Assembly (NCBI GenBank): GCA_938002255.1
Contig: CALLAL010000021.1
Span: 62,001 to 126,000 of the forward strand
Length of the DNA stretch: 64,000 bases
Direction of reading: 5' to 3'
From: an uncultured bacterium
GTDB taxonomy: Bacteria; Desulfobacterota; BSN033; UBA1163
Shown here: in pieces, positions 1 to 35,172 of the stretch
Position numbering within the stretch: position 1 is the first letter of the stretch
Layout of the letters: every line of letters begins with the position of its first letter
Translations under genes and position numbers: made by a program
The notes under the pieces: model-generated
Told to the model about the DNA's origin: nothing
What the model saw: only the letters and a program-made list of their open reading frames with translations
Databases searched by the model: none

Positions 1-1017
1 AGGATTGCAGGCCGGGTCAGGGGATCGAAGTTCGATCCGCGTCGCTTTCTCCTTACCCGGTTTATACATGGGGACCCGAACTAATGCAGACCGATTTCTT
101 CTTGCCCAGGCAATATAGACAGGGGCTTCATATCCGGGAACCAGTCTCTTGTAGGAGTTGACCCACTGAGAAGTGATGGAGGTGATCTCTTTGGAATGTT
201 TCAGAATACCAGCGATGTAGGACTTGGCAAGTTTTGAGAGATGAAATTCATCTTTCGGATCAAAAAAGGCATTTTTGTCGCCCCTAAAAAGGGATTGATG
301 GGTATGCATCCCGCTTCCATTCTGCTTGAAAATCGGCTTGGGCATAAAGGTGGCATAGACACCATGCTTGAGTGCGACCTCTTTAACTACGAGGCGATAA
401 GTCATGGCATGGTCAGCCATGGTTAAGGCATCGGTATAACGGAGGTCGATCTCATGCTGGCTGGGAGCGACTTCATGGTGACTGTACTCAACACGAATCC
501 CCATAGCTTCCAGGGTGAGAATGGTCTCCCGACGAAGTTCCGTCGCGACATCAAGAGGGGTAAGATCGAAATATCCTCCTTTGTCCAGAATCTGCGGAAT
601 TCCTTCACTGCTTTTAAAATAGAAATATTCCAGCTCAGGTCCTACATAAAAAGTGTAGCCAAGATCCTGTGCCTTTTTGAGAGTTTTTTTCAAAACCCAC
701 CGTGGATCGCCTTTATAAGGTGTTCCGTCTGGTTCATAAATATCGGCAAACATTCTGGCGACGGCATTTTCTTTGGGCCGCCAGGGAATGATCTGAAAGG
801 TTTTTGGGTCTGGTTTAGCAATCATGTCACTTTCATCGATGCGCGCATAGCCCTGAATCGAAGAGCCATCAAATCCCATTCCTTCTTCAAGGGCGCCTTC
901 CAGCTCATCGATGGTAATTGCAAACCCCTTGAGAAAACCGAGAATGTCTGTAAACCAGAGTCGAATGAATTTAACATCATTTTCCTTCGCCATCTTCAAT
1001 ACGGTCTCTTTGTCCAT
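1..1017 (-). CDS. glnA: Glutamine synthetase, type I (C-terminus beyond window)
   Basis: This gene makes glutamine from glutamate, ammonia and ATP. Reading the minus strand from ATG at 1017 gives 339 open codons to the window edge, so about 100 residues are missing. GGAGGAG lies just upstream of the ATG. Class I glutamine synthetase hallmarks are visible: MGFDGSS near residue 50, the NGSGMHTHQS motif and an RSPDPACNP-type segment at the truncated end. It closely resembles the second glutamine synthetase at 33841, but the two differ throughout. Upstream lies a hairpin-terminator leader (1141-1208) shared with the glutamate synthase-like gene. The missing C-terminus hides whether an adenylylation tyrosine is present. 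Confidence 0.96.
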   Translation of the reverse strand, partial: MDKETVLKMAKENDVKFIRLWFTDILGFLKGFAITIDELEGALEEGMGFDGSSIQGYARIDESDMIAKPDPKTFQIIPWRPKENAVARMFADIYEPDGTPYKGDPRWVLKKTLKKAQDLGYTFYVGPELEYFYFKSSEGIPQILDKGGYFDLTPLDVATELRRETILTLEAMGIRVEYSHHEVAPSQHEIDLRYTDALTMADHAMTYRLVVKEVALKHGVYATFMPKPIFKQNGSGMHTHQSLFRGDKNAFFDPKDEFHLSKLAKSYIAGILKHSKEITSITSQWVNSYKRLVPGYEAPVYIAWARRNRSALVRVPMYKPGKEKATRIELRSPDPACNP

Positions 1018-1140: not shown

Positions 1141-1208
1141 ATTAAAATGAAAGGCGCCCTTCTTTTGAGAAAGACGCCTTTGTCATTCTTTCAATACTTC
1201 ATCGTATT
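1141..1208 (-). promoter_or_regulatory. Hairpin plus intrinsic-terminator leader of glnA (candidate attenuator)
   Basis: Read on the minus strand, a 5-bp hairpin AATAC/GTATT with hexaloop GATGAA (1193-1208) is followed by GACAAAGGCG. That sequence begins a stem of about 13 bp (1150-1181) ending AAGGGCGCCTTT and a modest T-rich run (1141-1149). An overlapping alternative hairpin, TTCATC/GATGAA, is also possible. It lies about 125 nt upstream of the glnA start. The same arrangement occurs twice before the gltB-like gene. It looks like a transcription attenuator. That an ANTAR protein controls it is inference. Confidence 0.7.
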
Positions 1209-13756: not shown

Positions 13757-16664
<2,908 letters not shown>

Positions 16665-16695: not shown

Positions 16696-17922
16696 TTAAA
16701 AACTATATCCCACTTCTCCATGCTGGCTTAAATCCAGTCCATTCACTTCATGCTCTTCACTTACCCTCAATCCCATCGTCCAGTCAAGGACCTTTAAGAT
16801 GATAAGGGTCACCACAAAAGTATATATCCAGGCGGCTAAAACGGTCAATGCCTGTATTCCAAGGAGGGATGGATTCCCAAAGAAGAGACCATTATTTCCA
16901 GCCGGGTTGATTCCCTTTGAGGCGAAAAGTCCCGTGGCTAATGCTCCCCAGGTTCCGCCCACCCCGTGAACACCGACGACATCAAGAGAATCATCATATC
17001 CAAGTTTGGTTTTAAGATGGATTGCTGAATAACATAAGACACCCGCAGCCAAACCGGTGAGGATGGCAGATAGAGGGCCCACGAAGCCCGAAGCGGGAGT
17101 GATAGCGACCAATCCAGCCACGGCGCCGGATGCAGCTCCTAAAACGGTTGGATTGCCCCTGTGGAGCCATTCGGCGATCATCCAGGAAAGTGCGGCAGAG
17201 GCGGTTGAAATGTGGGTGACAACGAATGCGGAGGTGGCAACAGACCCTGAGGCAATTGCACTTCCACCGTTGAATCCAAACCAACCGAACCATAGAAGCG
17301 CAGCCCCGAGGAGGGTCATGGTCAGATTATGGGGGGGCATGGGCTCTTCGCCATAGCCCTTTCTCTTTCCCACGGCAAAGGTTGCAGCCAGAGCGGCAAT
17401 TCCTGAACTGATGTGAACCACCAATCCTCCAGCAAAATCGAGGGCCCCGAGTTCTTTGATCCAGCCTCCAATCCCCCAGACCCAGTGAGCCAGAGGATCA
17501 TAGACAAAGGTTGCCCAGAGGATCAAAAAGACCAGGTAGGTTTTAAATTTAAACCTCTCTGCAAAAGCGCCTGTGATTAAAGCAGGTGTAATCACGGCAA
17601 ACATCATCTGAAAGATCATGAATGCCTGATGAGGGACAGTGGGAGAGTAGTCTGGATGGGGATCGAGTCCAACTCCTCTTAAGCCGATCCAGTCGAGGCT
17701 TCCAATGATCCCTCCGATATCCGGGCCGAAGGCAAGGCTGTATCCGTAAAGAACCCACTGGACCGTGATGACACTAAGAGCGATAAAACTCTGCATGATC
17801 GTGCCCAGTACATTTTTCCTTCTGACCATCCCCCCATAAAAAAGAGCAAGCCCAGGCGTCATCAACATTACCAGGGCCGAAGAGATCAGTAACCATGTCG
17901 TATCCCCTGTGTCCACTTTCAT
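16696..17922 (-). CDS. amtB: Ammonium transporter AmtB
   Basis: This is an inner-membrane ammonium channel of 408 residues with about eleven membrane segments. The twin pore histidines are present: H170 in [10 protein letters not shown] and H319 in VVGVHGVGG. The signature DFAGGLVVH and the conserved C-terminal tail [14 protein letters not shown], which contacts PII, are intact. The N-terminus starts directly in the first membrane helix without a separate signal peptide. AAGGAGG precedes the ATG. It is followed by glnB, the usual pairing in which PII blocks the channel when nitrogen is sufficient. Confidence 0.97.
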
Positions 17923-24089: not shown

Positions 24090-25661
24090 TTATGATCCTA
24101 AGATCTTATCCACCTCCTCCCGATCACTGTCCATGACATAAGGAATGCCAGAGACATCAGACGCTTCACGGGTTAGAGCGGTGAGATCATCTCTGGTGAT
24201 ATATTTCAATGCAAATTTTCTTGCTCCTGCCATTAATTGTTGAAGTCCTGCATTTAGCCTATCGAAGTATGTGAGCATTCCAATGGTTCCTGTAGGAATG
24301 CGATCGAAATCCTTCCCGTATTGGTCTTTCAATTTCGCAGCGAGGATGAAAATGTGTTCGACATCGGTTCCATATTTAGCAATATCCGCCGGCACCTTCC
24401 CTTTCTTGATCATTTCACCGATGGTGTTACCGACCATAGCTGCCGTCATCGAGGCCCGGCCCAGGCAGATGGCTTTAATATAGGGCGCCGCCAAAGCAAT
24501 GGCCTTAAAAATATGGTCTTCAAGAGCAAGACCCCCTGCCATGGCACAATCGGGAATAAAGGCACCTTTCTGGTCTAACCGTTTCAGGAACTGATAGAGA
24601 AGTCCTTCGAGGTAAACGGTAGGGATGCCCCATTCATTCATCATTCTCCAGGGGCTCATGCCAGTTCCACCGCCAGCGCCATCCACGGTTAGAAGGTCGA
24701 TCCTGGCATCGGAGGCATATTTGACCGCCCGTGCAAGATCGGCAGGCCGATAAGCACCGGTCTTCAGGGAGACATATTTCGCTCCGATCTTTTTCAGTCG
24801 TTCCACCTCTTTATGAAATCCTGCCTCATCGACCATTCCCAGCCTGGAATGGCGTTCAAATTCTTTAAAGTCTCCCTGTTTAAAGGCCGCCTGGATTACC
24901 TTGTCTTCTGGATCAGGAAGAACAATATAGCCGCGACTCTTCAGTTGGAGGGCTCTTTCAAGAGAGGGGAGTTTTACCTCCCCACCGATGTCCTTTGCCC
25001 CCTGTCCCCATTTAGGTTCGATGATCTCGACCCCCAATTTTTCAACGGCATATTCGGGAACTCCGAGTCGGCCATCCTCCACATTATATTGGACGATGAT
25101 TCCACCGTAACCATCATACCACTGCTGGAATGTCTTGACACGGCGCTCCAGCTCTGGCGAACGAACCACATGACCATTTTTAAACTCCGCATTGGGATCC
25201 ATCCCGCAGACATTCTCTCCCACAACGACCAGGGTCCCTGAAATGGCCGCTGCAATGGCCATGGATTCCCAGTGTATTCGGGCGATATCGGTTGATCCCA
25301 GGGCACCGGTGAAGTAAGGAATCTTCATCTTGATCTTTTCTTTTGCTCCCACCTGAGTGGAAACATCGACTGCCGGAAAGGTAGCGGTGTCGGGATCGGC
25401 TTCGACTCCAATTGCGCCCACGCAGGTCCCCTGAATATTGAAATGCGAAAAGTCAACGGGATAGTCTTTCTCCGATCCGGCTGTTACCTTGGAGTAGGGC
25501 TGAGGGTAAAGAACCTCTCTTCCTCTCAAAGATGAGCGGCCAACCTCACATGGACCAGGGCAACCGTCGAGACAGGTAACACAGATTCCCGAGATGGGTG
25601 CGGGTTCAACGCGGTTCTTTGTAAATGTGGCTGGACTTCGGTTCGGTTTGGTGAAAGTCAT
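24090..25661 (-). CDS. Glutamate synthase-like FMN/Fe-S protein (GltB central domain family)
   Basis: This protein carries the FMN-binding synthase domain of glutamate synthase without the amidotransferase domain. It has 523 residues. The N-terminus has four cysteines (27, 30, 34, 38) in CVTCLDGCPGPC, probably binding an Fe-S cluster. The barrel shows ISLKTGAYRPADLA-like, DLLTVDGAGGGTGMSPW and CLGRASMTAAM segments typical of GltB. ATG at 25661 is chosen for its GAGGAGG site. Short proteins of this kind may make glutamate or carry out a related transfer; the electron donor and ammonia source are not evident. Two tandem attenuator-like hairpins lie in its leader. Confidence 0.85.
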   Translation of the reverse strand: MTFTKPNRSPATFTKNRVEPAPISGICVTCLDGCPGPCEVGRSSLRGREVLYPQPYSKVTAGSEKDYPVDFSHFNIQGTCVGAIGVEADPDTATFPAVDVSTQVGAKEKIKMKIPYFTGALGSTDIARIHWESMAIAAAISGTLVVVGENVCGMDPNAEFKNGHVVRSPELERRVKTFQQWYDGYGGIIVQYNVEDGRLGVPEYAVEKLGVEIIEPKWGQGAKDIGGEVKLPSLERALQLKSRGYIVLPDPEDKVIQAAFKQGDFKEFERHSRLGMVDEAGFHKEVERLKKIGAKYVSLKTGAYRPADLARAVKYASDARIDLLTVDGAGGGTGMSPWRMMNEWGIPTVYLEGLLYQFLKRLDQKGAFIPDCAMAGGLALEDHIFKAIALAAPYIKAICLGRASMTAAMVGNTIGEMIKKGKVPADIAKYGTDVEHIFILAAKLKDQYGKDFDRIPTGTIGMLTYFDRLNAGLQQLMAGARKFALKYITRDDLTALTREASDVSGIPYVMDSDREEVDKILGS

Positions 25662-25921
25662 CTTTTCATTCCTCCTCGTTATTGAATATTTAAACAAACC
25701 CAAATAGAGCCATTCATCCCATTTCACAAGGAAGGCCGAAATGCCTCCACCTTTTTAGAATGCAATAGGTTAATCGTTTGGCAATAGACCTTAAGAATTA
25801 CCCAAACGGGTGAGGATTGAACAGGCCCCATGATTGCGTCCACGAACCCAAGATAATCACTCTAAAAGACTATTCTGCCTTCTCCCCTTGCGCCGGGTGA
25901 AAAAATCGCCCTATTTAAGAC

Positions 25922-25978
25922 AAATAAAAAAAGGCGCCGGATTATTCCAACGCCTTTGTCAATTCTACTTCGTTGTAA
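25922..25978 (-). promoter_or_regulatory. Promoter-distal hairpin-terminator unit in gltB-like leader
   Basis: On the minus strand a short stem TTAC/GTAG closes hexaloop AACGAA (25965-25978), followed by GACAAAGGCG. A 12-bp terminator stem AAAGGCGTTGGA/TCCGGCGCCTTT runs 25930-25957 and a T7 run follows. It is the second of two tandem units, about 260 nt before the start codon. Its loop has A at position 1 and G at position 4, as described for ANTAR target loops. Confidence 0.72.
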
Positions 25979-25983
25979 TAAAC

Positions 25984-26039
25984 AAAAAAAAGGGCTATCG
26001 TTAGTTTAGACGCCCCTGTCCCAATACCTCATCGTATTG
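25984..26039 (-). promoter_or_regulatory. Promoter-proximal hairpin-terminator unit in gltB-like leader
   Basis: On the minus strand a perfect 6-bp stem CAATAC/GTATTG closes hexaloop GATGAG (26022-26039), almost at the predicted transcript 5' end. It is followed by GACAGGGGCGTC, a GGGC/GCCC terminator stem (about 25991-26016) and T8. The unit repeats the layout of the one at 25922 and of the glnA leader at 1141. Confidence 0.72.
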
Positions 26040-26047
26040 TTGGAGAA

Positions 26048-26479: not shown

Positions 26480-26508
26480 TTGACATTTTATTTTTTAAAA
26501 GATAAAAA
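26480..26508 (+). promoter_or_regulatory. Sigma70-type promoter of the KaiC-like/XRE/cupin gene
   Basis: TTGACA (26480-26485), a 17-bp spacer and TAAAAA (26503-26508), in very AT-rich DNA about 50 bp upstream of the start codon at 26557. Confidence 0.65.
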
Positions 26509-26556: not shown

Positions 26557-27864
26557 ATGAGCATAAAAATTTCAACCGGAATTAGTTATATCGATCATGT
26601 CCTTGGGTTTCTAAAGACCGGGGATAATGTGATCTGGGAGGTTGAAGCAGGGACCTACATCGAATCCTTTCTTCAAAAGTTTATAGAACATAGCCTCAAG
26701 AGCGGTTACAAACTGGTCTATATCAGTTTCAATGCCTCACCATCCACTCTTACCAAGCGTTTAGCCCATCTTTCTCACCTGGAGAATCTAACCATTTTAG
26801 ACTGCTTTACTTCAGGAAAGGGGAATAGCGATCCACTCTTTACCCAGTTCTATGAAAAGGAAAAAGTAAGATTCAGGGGTAGTGTGATCAAAGTTGAAAA
26901 CCCGAATGACCATTCACGATTTCGTATGGCCATTGATCGGATTGAGATTGAGAAAGGAGAGGGTGTCCGTTATGTCTTTGATAGCCTCACCGGAATGCAG
27001 GACATCTGGGGAGATGAGAATATTACTTACAAATTTTTTACTTATTCTTGCCCTCGACTCTATGATCTTCAGACCGTCGCCTACTGGGTCCTTGAGAGGG
27101 AGGCCCATACCCCTTCTTTCAAAGCCAATCTGAGGCATATCACCCAAGTGGCAATTGAACTGGATAACCAGAATGGCGACCTCTTTTTCAAGGCGGTCAA
27201 GATTGAAGGAAGGTTTTCACGAAGCGCTTTCCTTCCCAAACAATATGAAGTCTGGGACGGGGAGATCATTTTCCCTTCGATTGGAGGTAGAAGGCCCAGT
27301 AACTTGGGGGAAAAAATCCGATCTCTCAGAAAGAAGATTGGAATGACGCAGAAAGAGCTGGCAGAACAAGTGGGTCTGACACCAAGTTTCATTTCACAGC
27401 TCGAGAAAAATCTGATCAGCCCTTCTCTCGATTCTCTTCTAAAATTGAGCGAGAAATTGAATACCCAGCCCGTCTACTTTTTAGCGGAGGATGAAGGCAG
27501 TAGCTTCCAGAAGATGGTAATCAAACCAGAGGAGAGGCAGGAGGTTCGATTCTCAACTCTTAGGCGAAAGGATATTCAGTTTCAACTATTGGTTTCAGAT
27601 GTGCTTAATAGGAGAATGGAGCCTTATCTGTTAACCCTAAAGCAAGGGGCAGGGATTGATGGCCATTTTTGTGGACATAAAGGAGATGAGTTTGTTTATG
27701 TGATTCAAGGGGAGGTAGAGGTTGAGATACAGAACGAGAATTATCTACTAAAACAAGGAGATAGTCTCTATATAGGATCGACATTTCCATCTAAGTGGGA
27801 AAATCGTGGGATAGTGGATGCAGTTATCTTATGGGTTTTAAGCCCGCCCAGAGAAGGGTTGTAA
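26557..27864 (+). CDS. KaiC-like domain / XRE helix-turn-helix / cupin fusion regulator
   Basis: This 435-residue protein has three parts. Residues 1-235 resemble a RecA/KaiC-type ATPase with a Walker B-like segment VRYVFDSLTG (D142). The P-loop position reads EVEAGTYIESF (28-38) and lacks the GKT lysine, so ATP hydrolysis is doubtful. Residues 248-305 are an XRE-type DNA-binding domain with MTQKELAEQVGLTPSFISQLE. Residues 330-432 are a cupin with GDEFVYVIQGEVEV. XRE-cupin proteins are common repressors that bind small ligands; the KaiC-like addition is unusual. It lies directly upstream of the diaphorase genes and probably regulates them, but that is inferred from position only. Confidence 0.85.
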   Translation: MSIKISTGISYIDHVLGFLKTGDNVIWEVEAGTYIESFLQKFIEHSLKSGYKLVYISFNASPSTLTKRLAHLSHLENLTILDCFTSGKGNSDPLFTQFYEKEKVRFRGSVIKVENPNDHSRFRMAIDRIEIEKGEGVRYVFDSLTGMQDIWGDENITYKFFTYSCPRLYDLQTVAYWVLEREAHTPSFKANLRHITQVAIELDNQNGDLFFKAVKIEGRFSRSAFLPKQYEVWDGEIIFPSIGGRRPSNLGEKIRSLRKKIGMTQKELAEQVGLTPSFISQLEKNLISPSLDSLLKLSEKLNTQPVYFLAEDEGSSFQKMVIKPEERQEVRFSTLRRKDIQFQLLVSDVLNRRMEPYLLTLKQGAGIDGHFCGHKGDEFVYVIQGEVEVEIQNENYLLKQGDSLYIGSTFPSKWENRGIVDAVILWVLSPPREGL

Positions 27865-27942: not shown

Positions 27943-27965
27943 CTTATCTTACTTTGGAGGCAGAT

Positions 27966-28442
27966 ATGGACCTAAAGCCGGTTGATCTCATTGTTGACAA
28001 ATATCAGGAGAAGAGGACAGCGCTCATCAGCATTCTTCATGATGTTCAGGACAAATATAAGTACCTTCCTGAAGAAGCGCTGAGAATGGTTGCCTCAAGG
28101 CTCAGAATGGACATCAATGAGATTTATGGGGTTGCCACCTTCTATAAATCCTTCAGCCTTGTTCCAAAAGGGAAGCACTCCATTACCCTATGCATGGGGA
28201 CAGCCTGCCATGTCCGGGGAGGGCCAAAGATCTTGAGAGAACTTAAGAGTGTCCTTCACATAGAGCCCGGACAGACCACTTCTGATAGACAGTTCTCTCT
28301 GAATGTGGTGAACTGTTTGGGCGTGTGCGCCATTGGTCCGGTGATGATGGTAGATAAAAGATTTTATGGAGAAATGAGTCCGCTCAGAGCAAGGAAAATC
28401 ATCGAAACAATAAATAAAAAGAGGAGTGGGGTGGAATCATGA
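27966..28442 (+). CDS. NuoE-like [2Fe-2S] thioredoxin-fold subunit
   Basis: This small electron-transfer subunit belongs to an NAD(P)H-oxidising diaphorase module. The 158-residue protein has the NuoE helical start ([20 protein letters not shown]) and four cluster cysteines in [10 protein letters not shown] and [10 protein letters not shown]. That is the C-x4-C and C-x3-C pattern of the family. ATG at 27966 has GGAGG 5 nt upstream; an earlier TTG lies within that site. Its end overlaps the NuoF-like gene by 4 bp (ATGA), so the two are coupled. Similar subunits serve complex I, HoxEFU, HndABCD and NAD-linked formate dehydrogenases. Confidence 0.93.
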
Positions 28443-30289
28443 GACGAATCAAATCAGCGAAAGACCTGGAACAATGGAAGGCGACCATTTTGAAAAAACA
28501 GGGCACCCATGAGATGGTTGTTTCCGTATGCGGTGGTACGGGATGTCAAGCCTATGATTGCCAGAAAGTAAAGATGACCTTGCAAAAAGAACTCGGAAGA
28601 CACGGGTTGACGAAAAGGGTAGCTTTAAAAGTAACAGGATGTCCCGGTTTTTGTGAAAGAGGCCCCCTTGTCACTATCTATCCACAAAATATTTTTTATC
28701 AAAAAGTCACACCAGAGGATGTTCCAGAAATTGTTTCAAAGACCATTCAGAATGGGACAAAGGTGGAACGTCTTCTTTTTGAAGACTCCCGGAATAAGCA
28801 AAAAATAACTTCTGCCAGTGAGATTCCTTTTTATCGTCCCCAGATGAGGCTACTCCTTAGCCGGAATGATCTCATTGATCCAAACCGTATCGAGGATTAC
28901 ATCGCGATCGGCGGATATCAATCACTGGTAAAAGCGCTTTTCCAAATGGATCCCGATGGGATTATTGAAGAGATCAAGGCCTCAGGTTTAAGAGGAAGGG
29001 GAGGAGCAGGGTACCCCACTGGAAAAAAATGGGAGGAGTGTAAGAGAGAGTCTGGTACAACAAAGTATGTGATCTGCAATTGCGATGAAGGAGATCCTGG
29101 AGCCTTCATGGACAGGGCACTCATGGAAGGAAATCCACACTCTGTGCTTGAAGGGATGTTGATAGGGGCTTATGCCATAGGAGCTGATCATGGGTTTATT
29201 TATATAAGGCATGAATATCCTTTGGCATACAAGAATGCAGAGATTGCCATACAGCAAGCCAAAAGAGCGGGATTATTAGGGCAGAACATCTTGGGTTCTG
29301 GTTTCAATTTCGAGGTGGAGATTACCAAAGGAGGAGGCGCCTTTGTCTGCGGGGAATCAACTGCACTGATTGCGTCCATTGAAGGCAGGGTTGGAGAGCC
29401 GAGAAGTAAGCAGATTCGGACAGTGAAGCAAGGGCTCTGGCGAAAACCTACCACTCTCAACAATGTGGAGACCTGGGCCAATGTCCCCCTGATCATTGAA
29501 AAAGGGAGCCAGTGGTTTTCTTCGATTGGGACTGAGAAGAGCAAGGGGACAAAGATTTTCTCTCTGGTGGGAAAGGTCAAAAATACCGGCCTGGTCGAAG
29601 TGCCCATGGGGATCACTCTAAAGGAGATCATCTACGATATCGGAGGTGGCCAGCAGGACGGACGAAAGATCAAAGCCGTCCAGACCGGAGGTCCTTCAGG
29701 AGGCTGTATTCCGGCCTCCTTATTCGATCTTCCCGTCGATTTCGACAGCCTGACAGAGGTGGGCTCGATGATGGGCTCTGGCGGGATGATCGTGATGGAT
29801 GAGGGAACCTGTATGGTCGATGTGGCAAAATACTTTGTCCATTTCCTCGAAGAGGAATCCTGCGGCAAATGCCTTCCCTGCAGAGAAGGACTAAAGAGGA
29901 TGGGGCAGATATTAGACAGGATCACAGAAGGGAATGGAAACGAGGAAAGCCTGTTGCTTCTTGAAGAGTTGGCTCAAGTGGTAGGGGACACCTCCCTCTG
30001 CGGCCTGGGAAAAACCGCTTCCAATCCTGTGCTTTCTGCCCTGAGATACTTCCGGCCAGAGTTTGAGGCGCACATCCGTCAGAAGAGGTGTCCGGCAGGT
30101 GTCTGCACACCGCTCATCCAGTATTCGATTTCAGAGGATTGTACAGGGTGTGGGGCGTGTGCAAAGATCTGTCCAACCCAAGCCATCGAGGGAGAGAAGA
30201 AGAAGATTCACCGCATCCTTGTCGAGTTCTGTTCAAAATGTGGCTCCTGTAAAGAGGTATGCAAAGAAGAGGCTGTGATCGTTCAATAA
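28439..30289 (+). CDS. NuoF-like NAD(P)H/FMN subunit with added 2Fe-2S and ferredoxin domains
   Basis: This is the NAD(P)H-binding flavoprotein of the diaphorase. The 616-residue protein has an N-terminal thioredoxin-like 2Fe-2S domain ([19 protein letters not shown]). The NuoF core has FMN-site [13 protein letters not shown] and the NAD segment [12 protein letters not shown], then an SLBB domain and the N3-type cluster site [14 protein letters not shown]-terminal double [4Fe-4S] ferredoxin has [12 protein letters not shown] and [11 protein letters not shown]. This layout matches HndC/HydB-type subunits of NAD(P)-linked hydrogenases. ATG overlaps the NuoE-like stop codon. No hydrogenase or formate dehydrogenase catalytic gene is next to it. 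Confidence 0.95.
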
Positions 30290-30301: not shown

Positions 30302-30973
30302 ATGAAAAGGGAAACCGTCAATATCACCATCGATGGGAGATTGTTAGAGGTGGAGAAGGGGAGCACCATTCTCCAGGCAGGGCGTGAGTTCGGAATTCAC
30401 ATCCCGACAATGTGTTTTATGGAGCATCTCACCCCTTACGGAGGTTGTCGGATCTGTGTGGTTGAGATCAGTCAGAATGGAAGCAAACCTTTTATTGACA
30501 CAGCCTGCACTTATGAGGTGAGGGAGGGACTGTTGGTTCAAACCCAGACCCCCAAAATTATCCATGCCAGAAAGATGCTAGCGGAGCTCCTAGTTGCCAG
30601 TGCTCCCAATGTGAAATTGGCCCAGGATATTGCAGCCCGTTTTGGATTGCTTAAAGTCCGTTTTCCGATGGAGGATAATCGATGTATCCTCTGCGGCCTA
30701 TGTATCCGGATGTGTTATGAACAGATGGATGGGAGAGCGCTCGGTTTTGTTGGGAGAGGCACAGGAAGAAAAATAAGCATGCCTTTCAATGGAAGGCCGG
30801 AGACCTGCCGCCTTTGCCGAGGGTGTGATTTTGTATGCCCGGGATTGATCGTCCCCTGCCATGGAGTCAAAGACCCTGGAGAACTCTGTGGGAAATGCGT
30901 CAGATTAGAAGAGATGCCCAACTGTTGCGAGTTCGGGACATTCGGCTGTTTCTGCGATCAGAATCCACTTTAG
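30302..30973 (+). CDS. HoxU/NuoG-N-terminal-like Fe-S protein with Cys-rich tail
   Basis: This electron-relay subunit likely completes the diaphorase. The 223-residue protein begins with a plant-type [2Fe-2S] domain (cysteines in MCFMEHLTPYGGCRICVVE and TACTY). It lacks the usual His-Cys3 cluster motif, then has CILCGLCIRMC and CRLCRGCDFVCPG sites. The C-terminus adds six further cysteines in CGKC, NCCEFG and GCFC. That tail is not typical of HoxU and could be another cluster site. AAAGGAG precedes the start, 12 bp after the NuoF-like gene. The partner that receives the electrons is not encoded here. Confidence 0.87.
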   Translation: MKRETVNITIDGRLLEVEKGSTILQAGREFGIHIPTMCFMEHLTPYGGCRICVVEISQNGSKPFIDTACTYEVREGLLVQTQTPKIIHARKMLAELLVASAPNVKLAQDIAARFGLLKVRFPMEDNRCILCGLCIRMCYEQMDGRALGFVGRGTGRKISMPFNGRPETCRLCRGCDFVCPGLIVPCHGVKDPGELCGKCVRLEEMPNCCEFGTFGCFCDQNPL

Positions 30974-31216: not shown

Positions 31217-32962
31217 ATGACAAACAAAATCGATCGTAATATGACGGTGAAGGAGGTTCTGGATCAATATCCGGAGACGGCAAAGGTCTTTCAGAAATAT
31301 AACCTTCTCATCGTTGGAAAAACCTGTGGACCCCATGAACCGATGGCCTTTTTTACAAAGGCTCACGGAGTGGAGTATGAATCCTTTGCGCGGGAACTGG
31401 AGGCTGCCGTTTCTGAGAAACCCGGCAAGGTCGAAGCGATTGAAATCGATCCTTCCCTTATCGGTGATACGATCTATCAGAAGTTTATCAAAACTGCACT
31501 TATTGTTTCAGTGACCACGGGTTGTCTCTATGGCGCAATCAAACTTTTTGAGGTGGGGATGGGTGGCTCTTTTGATATCCTCTCTAAAAGAGCCATCCAG
31601 ATGCACGGTTCAAGTCAGCTTATTGGATGGGTGGGGCTTTATATTATGGGATTCTTCTACTTCATTCTTCCGAGGTTGAAAGGTACGGCCCTGGTCGGAA
31701 GAAAATGGGCGAACCTCAGTTATTACTTGGTTCTTGCTGGATTAATCATAAGGGCATTCTTCTATTATGTTGAGGAATCGAATCCACCTCTCTATCCACT
31801 GGTGGCAGGACTTCTCGATACAGCAGCCGCTGCCATCTTTCTTGGCGTCTGTTTGAAGACCCTCAGGAAGAGCACCGAACCCAAAGGGATTCAGGACAAT
31901 TTTCTTGTCGCAGGGATTGTCTGGTTTTTAGTCAGCGGGATGATCTATACCGTCTTAAACCTCCAGCTTTACTCAGGGGCTTTTCCATCAGACCATCCTC
32001 TGATTGCTGGCTCTGTTCCTCCTTACCTTTTCAGCGCCTGGGTTCACCTTTTCCTGATGGGTTTTGCCTTCAATTTTATCTTTGGGATTTCGGCAAAGAC
32101 GGTTCCATCCTTCCTGGATACCCCTCCTGTCCGAGAAGGCATGATCAAAAAGTTTTTCTGGATTTATAATCTCTCATTGATCGGCTATGTGGTTTCATCG
32201 CTTACAAGGATTCAGGCGATTTATTTTCTCACCCTTCTGCTCATTGCCCATTTTACTTGGGTCTTTATCCTCTCATTGCGGGTCTTTGAAAAGAGGGTGG
32301 GGGATCTGGATGATGTCCGGATGGATCGGAGCCACGAGCGCTTCATCCGGGTGGGTTATGGGTGGCTGGCCCTCTCCCTCGGGATTGCTCTTTTTCAGAT
32401 CATGACAAAGGACCCTTATACACAACATATGCTTCGTGGAGCAGCGAACCATGGCTATACGGTGGGTTTCGTAAGTATGCTCATCATCGGATATTCGATG
32501 AAAATGGTCCCTGTTTTTACAGGCAATCGGATCTGGAGCGGGACCTTAACCCAATGGACTTTCTGGCTTTTAAATATTGGAAATGGAGCTCGTATTGCGT
32601 TTGAAATTCTCGCAGCGACCCGAAATCCGACCATCCATCAGATCGTAGGATTTACAGGGTTTTTGGAAGTGGTGGCACTCATTCTTTTCGGAATCAATAT
32701 CTGGGTAACAATGAGCAGAGAAGAGGCTTACGAAGAGAAGCCCATCGAGGTTTTTACCGGAAACGAAACGGTCTATGCCTTGACCGAACAGTTTCCAGGG
32801 GTCATCCCGATTTTAAAAGAGGCAGGGTTTGAGAAGATTACGAATCCCCTTCTTCGAAAGACTCTGGGGAGGGCCATGACCGTTAGAAAAGCCTGTCAGG
32901 AGCAGAAGATTGATTTTAACTCGTTAAAGCCTAAGATTGAGTTAGCTATGAAAAGAACTTAA
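31217..32962 (+). CDS. NnrS-like multi-heme/copper membrane protein flanked by DUF1858-like domains
   Basis: A 581-residue membrane protein with about twelve hydrophobic segments and conserved histidines (MHGSSQLIGW, WVHLFLMGF, AANHGYTVGF), matching the NnrS family linked to nitric oxide stress. Residues 6-65 are a DUF1858-type domain (MTVKEVLDQYPETAKVFQKYNL) with one cysteine at position 37. A second, related domain occupies the last 65 residues (ALTEQFPGVIPILKEAGFE) and lacks that cysteine. DUF1858 domains occur with hybrid-cluster and ScdA-type proteins. AGGGGAG precedes the ATG. NO handling is the family expectation, not shown here. Confidence 0.85.
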   Translation: MTNKIDRNMTVKEVLDQYPETAKVFQKYNLLIVGKTCGPHEPMAFFTKAHGVEYESFARELEAAVSEKPGKVEAIEIDPSLIGDTIYQKFIKTALIVSVTTGCLYGAIKLFEVGMGGSFDILSKRAIQMHGSSQLIGWVGLYIMGFFYFILPRLKGTALVGRKWANLSYYLVLAGLIIRAFFYYVEESNPPLYPLVAGLLDTAAAAIFLGVCLKTLRKSTEPKGIQDNFLVAGIVWFLVSGMIYTVLNLQLYSGAFPSDHPLIAGSVPPYLFSAWVHLFLMGFAFNFIFGISAKTVPSFLDTPPVREGMIKKFFWIYNLSLIGYVVSSLTRIQAIYFLTLLLIAHFTWVFILSLRVFEKRVGDLDDVRMDRSHERFIRVGYGWLALSLGIALFQIMTKDPYTQHMLRGAANHGYTVGFVSMLIIGYSMKMVPVFTGNRIWSGTLTQWTFWLLNIGNGARIAFEILAATRNPTIHQIVGFTGFLEVVALILFGINIWVTMSREEAYEEKPIEVFTGNETVYALTEQFPGVIPILKEAGFEKITNPLLRKTLGRAMTVRKACQEQKIDFNSLKPKIELAMKRT

Positions 32963-32966
32963 GGAA

Positions 32967-33671
32967 CTATCCTCCCATTTTGTCGGTGAGGAGAATGGCC
33001 TCAGCAATTTCACGCATGGTTTTTCGACTATCCATGCTGGCCTTCCGAATGCGTTTGAAGGCTTCTTCTTCGCTCAAGTTTTGGCGCTTCATCAAAACCC
33101 CCTTGGCCCTTTCGACCAGTTTTCGAATTTCCAATTCCTCCTGGATCACTTTCGTCTTGACCATCAGTTCTGTGCTCTCGATACAGATAGCGGCCTGACT
33201 GGCAACCGCAGTGAGCATATCTTTTTCCGCCTCAGTAAATTCATGAGGATAGGAGGTATAACAATTGATCACACCGATCACTTTATCCTTGATCGCCAGA
33301 GGAACGCTGAGCATGGAGACCAGCCCTTCTTTTTTGGCGAGTTCTTTTTCTTTGTAGCGGGGTTCTTTAAGAACGTCGAGGATGGCCAAGGGTTTTTTTG
33401 TCTGGGCCACATACCCGACAACGCCTTCCCCTAATTTAAGACTTCGCTCCTTAAGATACTCTTCACTCATCGTTTGAGTGGCTCGGATTTTTAAAACCTT
33501 CTCCCTCTCGTCCAGAATCCAGAGAGAACAAATTTTTGAATCCATCACTTTGGCCGTCACGGTGACGATGAGTTTGAGGATGTCATCGAGATAGCGATCG
33601 GAAGAGATGGCTTTGCTGATCTCGGTGAGTGCCTTGATCTGCTGTTTGTAGGATGTCTTTTTGTAGAGCAC
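32967..33671 (-). CDS. GAF-ANTAR transcription antiterminator
   Basis: A 234-residue cytosolic regulator. A GAF ligand-binding domain covers about residues 10-160. A C-terminal ANTAR domain (about 168-228) has LVERAKGVLMKRQNLSEEEAFKRIRKASMDSRKTMREIAEAI, the three-helix RNA-binding fold that blocks terminators by gripping leader hairpins. GTG at 33671 is the start, with AAGGAA upstream and a strong promoter beyond. The GAF domain closely matches the first GAF domain of the kinase at 22271. Divergent glnA2 and the hairpin leaders at 1141 and 25922-26039 point to nitrogen genes as targets, in line with NasR, EutV and Geobacter GnfR. Confidence 0.93.
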   Translation of the reverse strand: MLYKKTSYKQQIKALTEISKAISSDRYLDDILKLIVTVTAKVMDSKICSLWILDEREKVLKIRATQTMSEEYLKERSLKLGEGVVGYVAQTKKPLAILDVLKEPRYKEKELAKKEGLVSMLSVPLAIKDKVIGVINCYTSYPHEFTEAEKDMLTAVASQAAICIESTELMVKTKVIQEELEIRKLVERAKGVLMKRQNLSEEEAFKRIRKASMDSRKTMREIAEAILLTDKMGG

Positions 33672-33733: not shown

Positions 33734-33840
33734 CGGTATCGCTTTACCCAGAGCGTTAAGTGTTTAGCGGTGAAGAGGGTTGACCAGTAGAGGGAGATTA
33801 TGCTAACTTGAATTATCTCTTATTGACCAGGGGGGCTATC

Positions 33841-35172
33841 ATGGCTGCATTAAGCAAAAAAGATGTTTTGCGAATCGCAAGAGCGAAAAAAGTTAGATTC
33901 GTCAGACTCTGGTTTTCAGACATCCTGGGTTTTTTAAAAAGCTTTGCCATTACCGTCCGAGAGCTGGAAGATGCTCTCGAGGAGGGGATGGGATTTGATG
34001 GGTCTTCTATTGCTGGATTTGCAAGAATTGATGAAAGTGACATGGTAGCCAAACCCGATCCTTCCACATTCCGAATCTTTCCCTGGAAGGCGAATGATCA
34101 TGTAGTGGCTGTCATGTTCTGTGACATCCTCCAGCCGGATGGACACCCCTACCAGAGTGATCCCCGATGGGTCCTGAAGAAGAATTTAGAGAGGGCTGCA
34201 AAGATGGGCTATACCTTCAATGTCGGTCCTGAACTCGAATTCTTCTTTTTTAAGAATTCTACAGGAAAACCGGAGTTTCTCGATTCGGGAGGCTATTTCG
34301 ACCTTACGCCGATTGACGTTGCAAGCGATCTCCGTAAACAGGTTGTGATGGCTCTCGAAGAAATGGGCGTACCGGTTGAATACTGCCATCACGAGGTGGC
34401 CCCCAGCCAGCACGAGATCGACCTCAAATATACCGATGCCTTAACCATGGCCGATCGCACAATGATCTATCGCTTGATCGTTAAAGAGGTGGCTTTGAAA
34501 AATGGAGTCTATGCCAGCTTTATGCCTAAACCTGTATTCGGCGTGAATGGAAGCGGGATGCATACCCATCAATCCCTTTTTAAAGGGAATCAGAATGCCT
34601 TTTTTGATCCAAAGGACAAGTATCATCTCTCGGACATCGCAAAACATTATATTGCAGGTTTGATGAAACATGCCCGGGAAATTACTTTGGTCACGAACCA
34701 ATGGGTGAATTCTTATAAAAGACTGGTACCGGGATACGAGGCACCCGTCTATATCTCCTGGGCTCAAAAGAATCGTTCTGATCTGATCCGCATCCCGGTT
34801 TACAAACCCGGAAAAGAAGTGGCCACACGAGTTGAGTATCGATGTCCGGATCCTGCCTGCAACCCCTATCTTGCCTTTGCTGTTATGTTGGCTGCGGGAC
34901 TGGAGGGCATTGAGAAGAAATATCCTCTGAGAGACCCGGTGGAACGAAATGTTTACGAGATGACGGAGAAAGAGAGGAGAAAATATAAGATTGATACTCT
35001 CCCTGAGGATCTCTGGGAGGCTATTCAAATAACCGAAAAGAGCGATCTGGTGCGAAGAGCATTGGGAGACGAGGTTTTTTATAAATTCATCCAAAACAAG
35101 AAGGTGGAATGGGAGCGATATCGGGCACGAGTCACCGATTTTGAATTAGAGGAATATTTCTCGATTTTGTGA
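33841..35172 (+). CDS. glnA: Glutamine synthetase, type I (second copy)
   Basis: A complete second glutamine synthetase of 443 residues. The start ATG at 33841 has AGGGGGG just upstream; an earlier TTG at 33808 lacks a site. Visible hallmarks are MGFDGSS, the metal and substrate region VEYCHHEVAPSQHEIDL, NGSGMHTHQSLF and RVEYRCPDPACNPYLA. The C-terminal region NVYEMTEKERRKYKIDTLP has no NLYDLPPE-type adenylylation tyrosine, so this is a short GSI-alpha type, controlled by feedback or protein contact rather than GlnE. It is divergent from the GAF-ANTAR gene. No hairpin-terminator leader like that of the first glnA was seen. Confidence 0.97.
   Translation: MAALSKKDVLRIARAKKVRFVRLWFSDILGFLKSFAITVRELEDALEEGMGFDGSSIAGFARIDESDMVAKPDPSTFRIFPWKANDHVVAVMFCDILQPDGHPYQSDPRWVLKKNLERAAKMGYTFNVGPELEFFFFKNSTGKPEFLDSGGYFDLTPIDVASDLRKQVVMALEEMGVPVEYCHHEVAPSQHEIDLKYTDALTMADRTMIYRLIVKEVALKNGVYASFMPKPVFGVNGSGMHTHQSLFKGNQNAFFDPKDKYHLSDIAKHYIAGLMKHAREITLVTNQWVNSYKRLVPGYEAPVYISWAQKNRSDLIRIPVYKPGKEVATRVEYRCPDPACNPYLAFAVMLAAGLEGIEKKYPLRDPVERNVYEMTEKERRKYKIDTLPEDLWEAIQITEKSDLVRRALGDEVFYKFIQNKKVEWERYRARVTDFELEEYFSIL

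Follow-up and report, generated by a model that had tools for sequence, protein, structure and literature searches.

In the window analyzed here, a stretch of 64,000 nucleotides from an uncultured member of the Desulfobacterota, one gene encodes a protein in which a KaiC-like domain precedes an XRE helix-turn-helix and a cupin. The locus raises the question of what a KaiC-like domain that has lost its ATP site does in a putative transcription regulator.

The regulator gene and the fold of its N-terminal domain

The gene, its promoter and the domains of its product were located as follows.

26557..27864, plus strand: KaiC-like/XRE/cupin regulator, 435 aa (open reading frame; orthologues)
26566..27273, plus strand: predicted P-loop-less KaiC/RecA-fold domain, residues 4-239 (profile search, AlphaFold2, Foldseek)
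27304..27480, plus strand: XRE helix-turn-helix, residues 250-308 (Pfam)
27628..27837, plus strand: cupin domain, residues 358-427 (Pfam)
26480..26485, plus strand: TTGACA, likely -35 of the regulator promoter (conservation in close orthologues)

The initial annotation had described an XRE domain and a cupin fused behind the KaiC-like part. Pfam searches bore this out: HTH_3 matched residues 254-308 (E 2.5e-15) and Cupin_2 residues 358-427 (E 1.9e-11) of the same 435-residue chain, and HTH_3 was followed by Cupin_2 in 60/60 aligned full-length homologues. The PuuR equivalog NF007408 scored 68 bits over residues 250-417 and missed its cut-off of 211. PuuR-type XRE-cupin regulators share the order of helix-turn-helix and cupin, whereas the regulator has an additional KaiC-like N-domain of 240 aa and a nitrogen-gene context. 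A sequencing artefact or pseudogene was ruled out because orthologues 74-81% identical to the regulator keep every domain intact. The TTGACA element is also kept in close orthologues, where an AT-rich -10 lies downstream of it. No relatives of the regulator were found among viral contigs.

The match of the window protein to the KaiC family in Pfam (PF06745) was weak, covering residues 5-203 at 16.8-19.1 bits against a gathering cut-off of 26.6. A profile of the N-domain built from 47 relatives, however, matched KaiC in the PDB with an E value of 7e-10. AlphaFold2 modelled the N-domain alone with a pLDDT of 95 and a pTM of 0.92, and the full chain with a pLDDT of 87. Foldseek placed the N-domain on PH0284 (2dr3; TM 0.73-0.77), on KaiC (TM about 0.65-0.74, query-normalised) and on SSO2452 (2w0m). 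The AlphaFold2 model and the Foldseek matches indicate that residues 4-239 have a predicted KaiC/RecA fold, in agreement with the KaiC/RecA-like part read earlier from the sequence; structure prediction did not place residues 1-235 outside the RecA fold. PH0284, SSO2452 and KaiC thus share the fold of the N-domain (TM about 0.65-0.77) at 12-19% identity; KaiC has a P-loop and catalytic glutamates, whereas the N-domain has neither. Weak Pfam matches to DUF7090 in 24 of the 47 family N-domains (best E 1e-4) were taken as no more than a lead towards possible common descent with the archaeal iKaiC domains, as opposed to an independent loss.

The lost ATP site and the residues kept in its place

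The positions that correspond to the ATP site, and the motifs found around them, are listed below.

26620..26664, plus strand: lost Walker A position, GDNVIWEVEAGTYIE (alignment, profile, family count)
26725..26742, plus strand: SFNASP, where KaiC has the catalytic EE (FEESP) (profile alignment)
26800..26823, plus strand: DCFTSGKG, with D, F, T, G, K and G invariant in the XRE-fused branch; missing from the PPDK_N branch (alignment)
26974..26994, plus strand: VFDSLTG, Walker B-type strand (alignment)
27049..27108, plus strand: CPRLYDLxTVAYWxxExxAH, with invariant C, P, L, A, Y, W, A and H (alignment)
27199..27213, plus strand: K215-x3-R219, both invariant in 87/87 (alignment)

The Walker A lysine had been noted as missing, and the region GDNVIWEVEAGTYIE of the window protein indeed contains no GK[ST]. 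Across the homologues no normal P-loop was found: the pattern GxxxxGK[ST] occurred in none of 87 aligned distinct homologues, nor in any of 127 distinct members when every architecture of the family was counted. In the alignment of the 87, the segment that stands where KaiC has GxxGxGKT reads G-D-N-V-[VI]-W-x-x-[DE]-A-G, in which N24 and W27 are present in 87/87 and G-D-N-x-x-W and G32 are near-universal. Both catalytic glutamates of KaiC have also disappeared, which the initial annotation had overlooked; the pair is replaced in all 87, with N or D at residue 59 and mostly R, K or A at residue 60, so that the FEESP segment of KaiC mostly reads F-[ND]-[RKA]-S-P in the regulator family. The Walker B-like VFDSLTG is retained as had been described, and its acidic position is D in 68, E in 18 and N in 1 of the 87.

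Judged from these alignments, the whole family has lost the P-loop and local decay is excluded; chance and sequencing error were discounted because the P-loop is gone from all 87 aligned and 127 distinct members. Further residues are invariant in 87/87, namely D82, F84, T85, G87, K88, G89, S143, T145, G146, C165 and P166, together with L168, A175, Y176, W177, A183, H184, Q197, K215 and R219. The family signature comprises GDNVVW, DCFTxGKG, DSLTG, CP, AYW, AH and K/R, and these invariant new motifs speak for a retained function and against decay. A divergent KaiC-XRE-cupin-like paralogue (L163|9, 431 aa, from G179:C65:12480-13172) was also observed, in which even the GDN motif is gone.

KaiC family proteins have conserved basic residues in the strand region that matches K215/R219. 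The domain might still report energy charge by binding an adenine nucleotide at an altered site. The RecA fold, the retained Walker B-type D/E and the invariant K215 and R219 are consistent with such binding, and the invariant GKG of DCFTxGKG might bind phosphate. However, no member retains Walker A or either catalytic glutamate, and the PPDK_N branch lacks the GKG motif; we regard nucleotide sensing as rather unlikely.

Inactivated KaiC-like domains (iKaiC) have been reported in archaeal signalling proteins (PMC5847659, citing Makarova, Galperin and Koonin 2017), a precedent that the initial annotation had missed. In that account, a KaiC superfamily domain predicted to be inactive is fused to signalling or output domains, as in the regulator. 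As far as the account describes them, iKaiC proteins are archaeal and carry REC/HalOD1, whereas the regulator is bacterial, carries XRE and cupin domains with GDNVVW and DCFTxGKG, and lies in a glutamate-synthesis context.

Gene neighbourhood and the proposed role of the domain

A genome scan returned 326 relatives, and the best 80 of the 326 came from Nitrospirota, Thermodesulfobacteriota/Deltaproteobacteria, Poribacteria, Auribacterota and one Bacillota bin. Carriers of an orthologue include Desulfobulbus elongatus, which is culturable, and Desulfacinum infernum. In the tree, the Nitrospirota sequences lay together and the window's group lay with Poribacteria. The dead KaiC domain was present in some form in 110 of 297 genomes sampled from the window's phylum. 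About 60 of these 110 had frames of XRE size and the rest mostly had frames of 820-1200 aa, of which those opened were PPDK_N-type by similarity to a Pfam-tested member.

Neighbours were labelled by clustering adjacent genes and running Pfam on representatives. With mechanical gene calls, many loci on MAG contigs and phylogenetically non-independent counts, 69 of 87 non-redundant loci had a nitrogen-assimilation gene at most four genes away; the other 18, some on short contigs, had none at that distance. The initial annotation had proposed a check of gene neighbours and had missed this near-constant glutamate/nitrogen context. A glutamate-synthase-like gene (PF01645) was directly adjacent in 57/87 and within four genes in 66/87. 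Within the same distance we counted NrpR in 26 loci, GATase-like/GltB1 in 16 (the GATase label, cluster 4, is a reading of the sequence with no Pfam match), GltB2 in 14, PII in 13, GltB3+GltD in 12, GAF-ANTAR in 12, NuoE-like and NuoF-like proteins in 11 each, glutamine synthetase in 6 and glutamate dehydrogenase in 5. The nitrogen context was common to the Nitrospirota and Thermodesulfobacteriota branches. A nitrogen gene lay within 1.5 kb in 65/87 regulator loci versus 0/14 other XRE-cupin loci, the latter being a small control set of ordinary XRE-cupin loci.

The window qualifies as a nitrogen island, with the following genes.

24090..25727, minus strand: glutamate-synthase-like gene (PF01645), divergent, the most constant neighbour (Pfam, clustering)
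27954..28442, plus strand: NuoE-like 2Fe-2S protein, downstream gene (Pfam)
28439..30289, plus strand: NuoF-like NADH/FMN/Fe-S protein (Pfam)
30302..30973, plus strand: HoxU/NuoG-N-like Fe-S protein (Pfam)
31217-32962, plus strand: membrane protein that resembles COX1/NnrS in parts and has a DUF1858 at its C-terminus; the gene separates the NuoEF-like genes from the GAF-ANTAR gene (Pfam)
32967..33671, minus strand: GAF-ANTAR protein (Pfam)
33808..35172, plus strand: glutamine synthetase (Pfam)
1-1017, minus strand: second glutamine synthetase (reading of the translation)
16696..17922, minus strand: ammonium transporter, Amt (Pfam)
13757..16444, minus strand: GlnD-like PII uridylyltransferase

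An NAD synthase, an NtrC-type regulator and a GAF kinase are also encoded in the window. The reaction of the glutamate-synthase-like neighbour is uncertain because its PF01645 match is partial (52.9 bits) and sequence search gave no relative in the PDB.

The recurrence of nitrogen-gene neighbours across phyla suggests that the protein is probably a regulator of nitrogen assimilation in these anaerobes. We consider it likely that it regulates the transcription of genes for glutamate synthesis and ammonium assimilation, with the dead KaiC domain as its input; a gene neighbourhood is an association, not control. Alternatively, the regulator might control other genes, such as the NuoE/NuoF-type redox genes, with the nitrogen genes as bystanders, since nuoE-nuoF-like genes lie directly downstream in the window and its close relatives. 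This appears quite improbable, as NuoE/NuoF-like genes lie within four genes in only 11/87 loci versus 66/87 for the glutamate-synthase-like gene, and at L092 and L094 the nuoEF-like genes come after a glutamate-synthase-like gene instead. Because they follow that gene at these two loci, the nuoEF-like genes may serve the glutamate-synthase-like enzyme.

The two candidate sensory domains differ in conservation. Cupin motif 1 is partly kept (H370 in 73, H374 in 52 and E378 in 76 of 87), and the histidine of motif 2 is replaced, mostly by S or T, giving P-S/T-x-W-x-N instead of P-H. A KaiC-XRE subfamily of 350-376 aa has no cupin and adjoins the same nitrogen genes. Elp4 is a P-loop-less RecA-like ring subunit, and Pfam matches to PAXNEB (Elp4) were found in 39/47 family N-domains (best E 2.2e-6). 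The N-terminal domain of BcsE, likened here by its fold description, has a KaiC/RecA-like fold, has lost Walker A and self-associates (PMC7439463); unlike the regulator, BcsE belongs to cellulose secretion and has no XRE or cupin. With these parallels, the dead KaiC domain could be an oligomerisation scaffold only, of the Elp4/5/6 or BcsE type, leaving the cupin to sense. We find this doubtful: the cupin is missing from a subfamily with the same context, its positions show much lower conservation than those of the KaiC-like part, and the dense invariant polar residues of the KaiC-like domain suggest a pocket there.

In the preferred reading, a regulator with the dead KaiC domain as input, that domain would not hydrolyse ATP and would bind a metabolite or partner that reports nitrogen status. 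It may also assemble protomers head to tail into a ring or dimer, as other KaiC/RecA-like domains do. Binding and assembly would shift the seating of the XRE domain on DNA, and this seating would set how strongly the adjacent glutamate-synthase-like gene and NuoEF-like genes are expressed. The cupin would be a second input that binds a ligand and is dispensable, because cupin-less relatives keep the same neighbours. The initial annotation had proposed a repressor with two sensory inputs; the analysis supports this in part, namely in the fold, the P-loop lost in all homologues and the XRE-cupin fusion, and the regulator may act by repression or by activation.

A second family with the same dead KaiC domain, missed by the initial annotation, consists of proteins of about 860-930 aa in which the P-loop-less domain precedes PPDK_N, the portion of PEP synthase that binds ATP. 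Its KaiC domain aligned with that of the regulator at an hhalign probability of 99.9% (E 1e-36); the DCFTxGKG segment is absent. Glutamate dehydrogenase lay within four genes in 14/20 sampled loci of this type (L203-L222), and other PPDK_N-type loci had NrpR or glutamate-synthase modules; the PPDK_N-type protein is possibly a regulator of glutamate dehydrogenase. All three architectures share the dead KaiC domain and a place at the glutamate node. Tentatively, the P-loop-less KaiC domain may represent a new class of sensor for the 2-oxoglutarate/glutamate node, in the XRE-fused regulator and the ATP-grasp/PPDK_N enzyme alike. If true, Thermodesulfobacteriota and Nitrospirota would gain a nitrogen-control system besides PII, NrpR and NtrC.

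The architecture had been called new, and in the open-access literature we found no documented homologue and no description of the architecture or of its dead KaiC domain. For sulfate reducers, syntrophs and Nitrospirota, nitrogen control is to our knowledge poorly charted. This apparently undescribed family at glutamate-synthesis genes is a concrete candidate for nitrogen-status sensing in these bacteria, in which an inactivated KaiC domain would be reused, probably as a metabolic input.

Palindromes and leader hairpins at the loci

In Nitrospirota, a GGYAA-N4-TTRCC palindrome lies immediately before the start codon of the regulator gene, and a second copy often lies upstream, towards the divergent glutamate synthase genes. 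Its near-confinement to the regulator locus first suggested an operator of the regulator itself. This assignment was set aside in favour of NrpR, because the palindrome fits the operator GGTA-N6-TACC proposed for NrpRI of M. mazei (PMC3177094) and tracks the presence of NrpR: a GGTA-N6-TACC-like operator was found in 22/25 genomes with NrpR and 2/7 without (Fisher p 0.005, ignoring relatedness and genome completeness). Both NrpR and the regulator are candidate owners of the Nitrospirota site GGTAACCGTTTGCC, because two assemblies of undefined completeness, those of L075 and L080, carry the palindrome without NrpR. NrpR is an archaeal nitrogen repressor whose homologues (PF01995) share Nitrospirota loci with the regulator; it is a separate protein and probably acts upstream of it.

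In 11 of the 12 genomes examined, the stricter form GGYAANCGNTTRCC occurred at only 1-3 sites each. Outside the regulator locus, with the neighbours of the extra sites read for all but G316:C43, it lay by nrpR/glnA (L188), a glutamate-synthase-like gene (L195) and glutamate dehydrogenase (L196). From these positions, the regulator gene of Nitrospirota is apparently part of a small nitrogen regulon; the three sites look like a small bacterial regulon of the NrpR type. No NrpR-type palindrome was seen in the window's group, and dyad scans of non-Nitrospirota loci, the window's group included, gave no convincing candidate for the regulator's own operator.

The leader of the glutamate-synthase-like gene 24090-25727 (25925-26045, minus strand) reads as two successive putative attenuators of the ANTAR type. 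Its hexaloop hairpins are CAATAC-GATGAG-GTATTG, GGAC-AGGGGC-GTCT, TTAC-AACGAA-GTAG and TTGAC-AAAGGC-GTTGG, and the second hairpin of each pair overlaps a terminator with a T-run. The hexaloops fit the A1/G4 consensus of ANTAR targets (PMC3369931), apart from the first loop, which begins with G. CAATAC-N6-GTATTG had been considered as an operator and was rejected in favour of a minus-strand ANTAR target hairpin, which is the better reading; a genome scan for it at two mismatches was too loose to inform. No Rfam matches were found in the window.

A second leader of like kind lies upstream of the glutamine synthetase gene 1-1017 (1150-1208, minus strand), with AATAC-GATGAA-GTATT followed by GAC-AAAGGC-GTC in a terminator-like hairpin. 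The strict leader pattern occurred at only two places in the genome, 25925-26045 and 1150-1208. In relatives, CAATAC-N6-GTATTG hairpins, well suited to a covariance model of a candidate ANTAR nitrogen regulon, were observed at L038:12573 and 14611, L039:10042, L040:11658, L035:182 and L041:10166, and those of L038 and L039 lie directly after TTGACA-type promoters.
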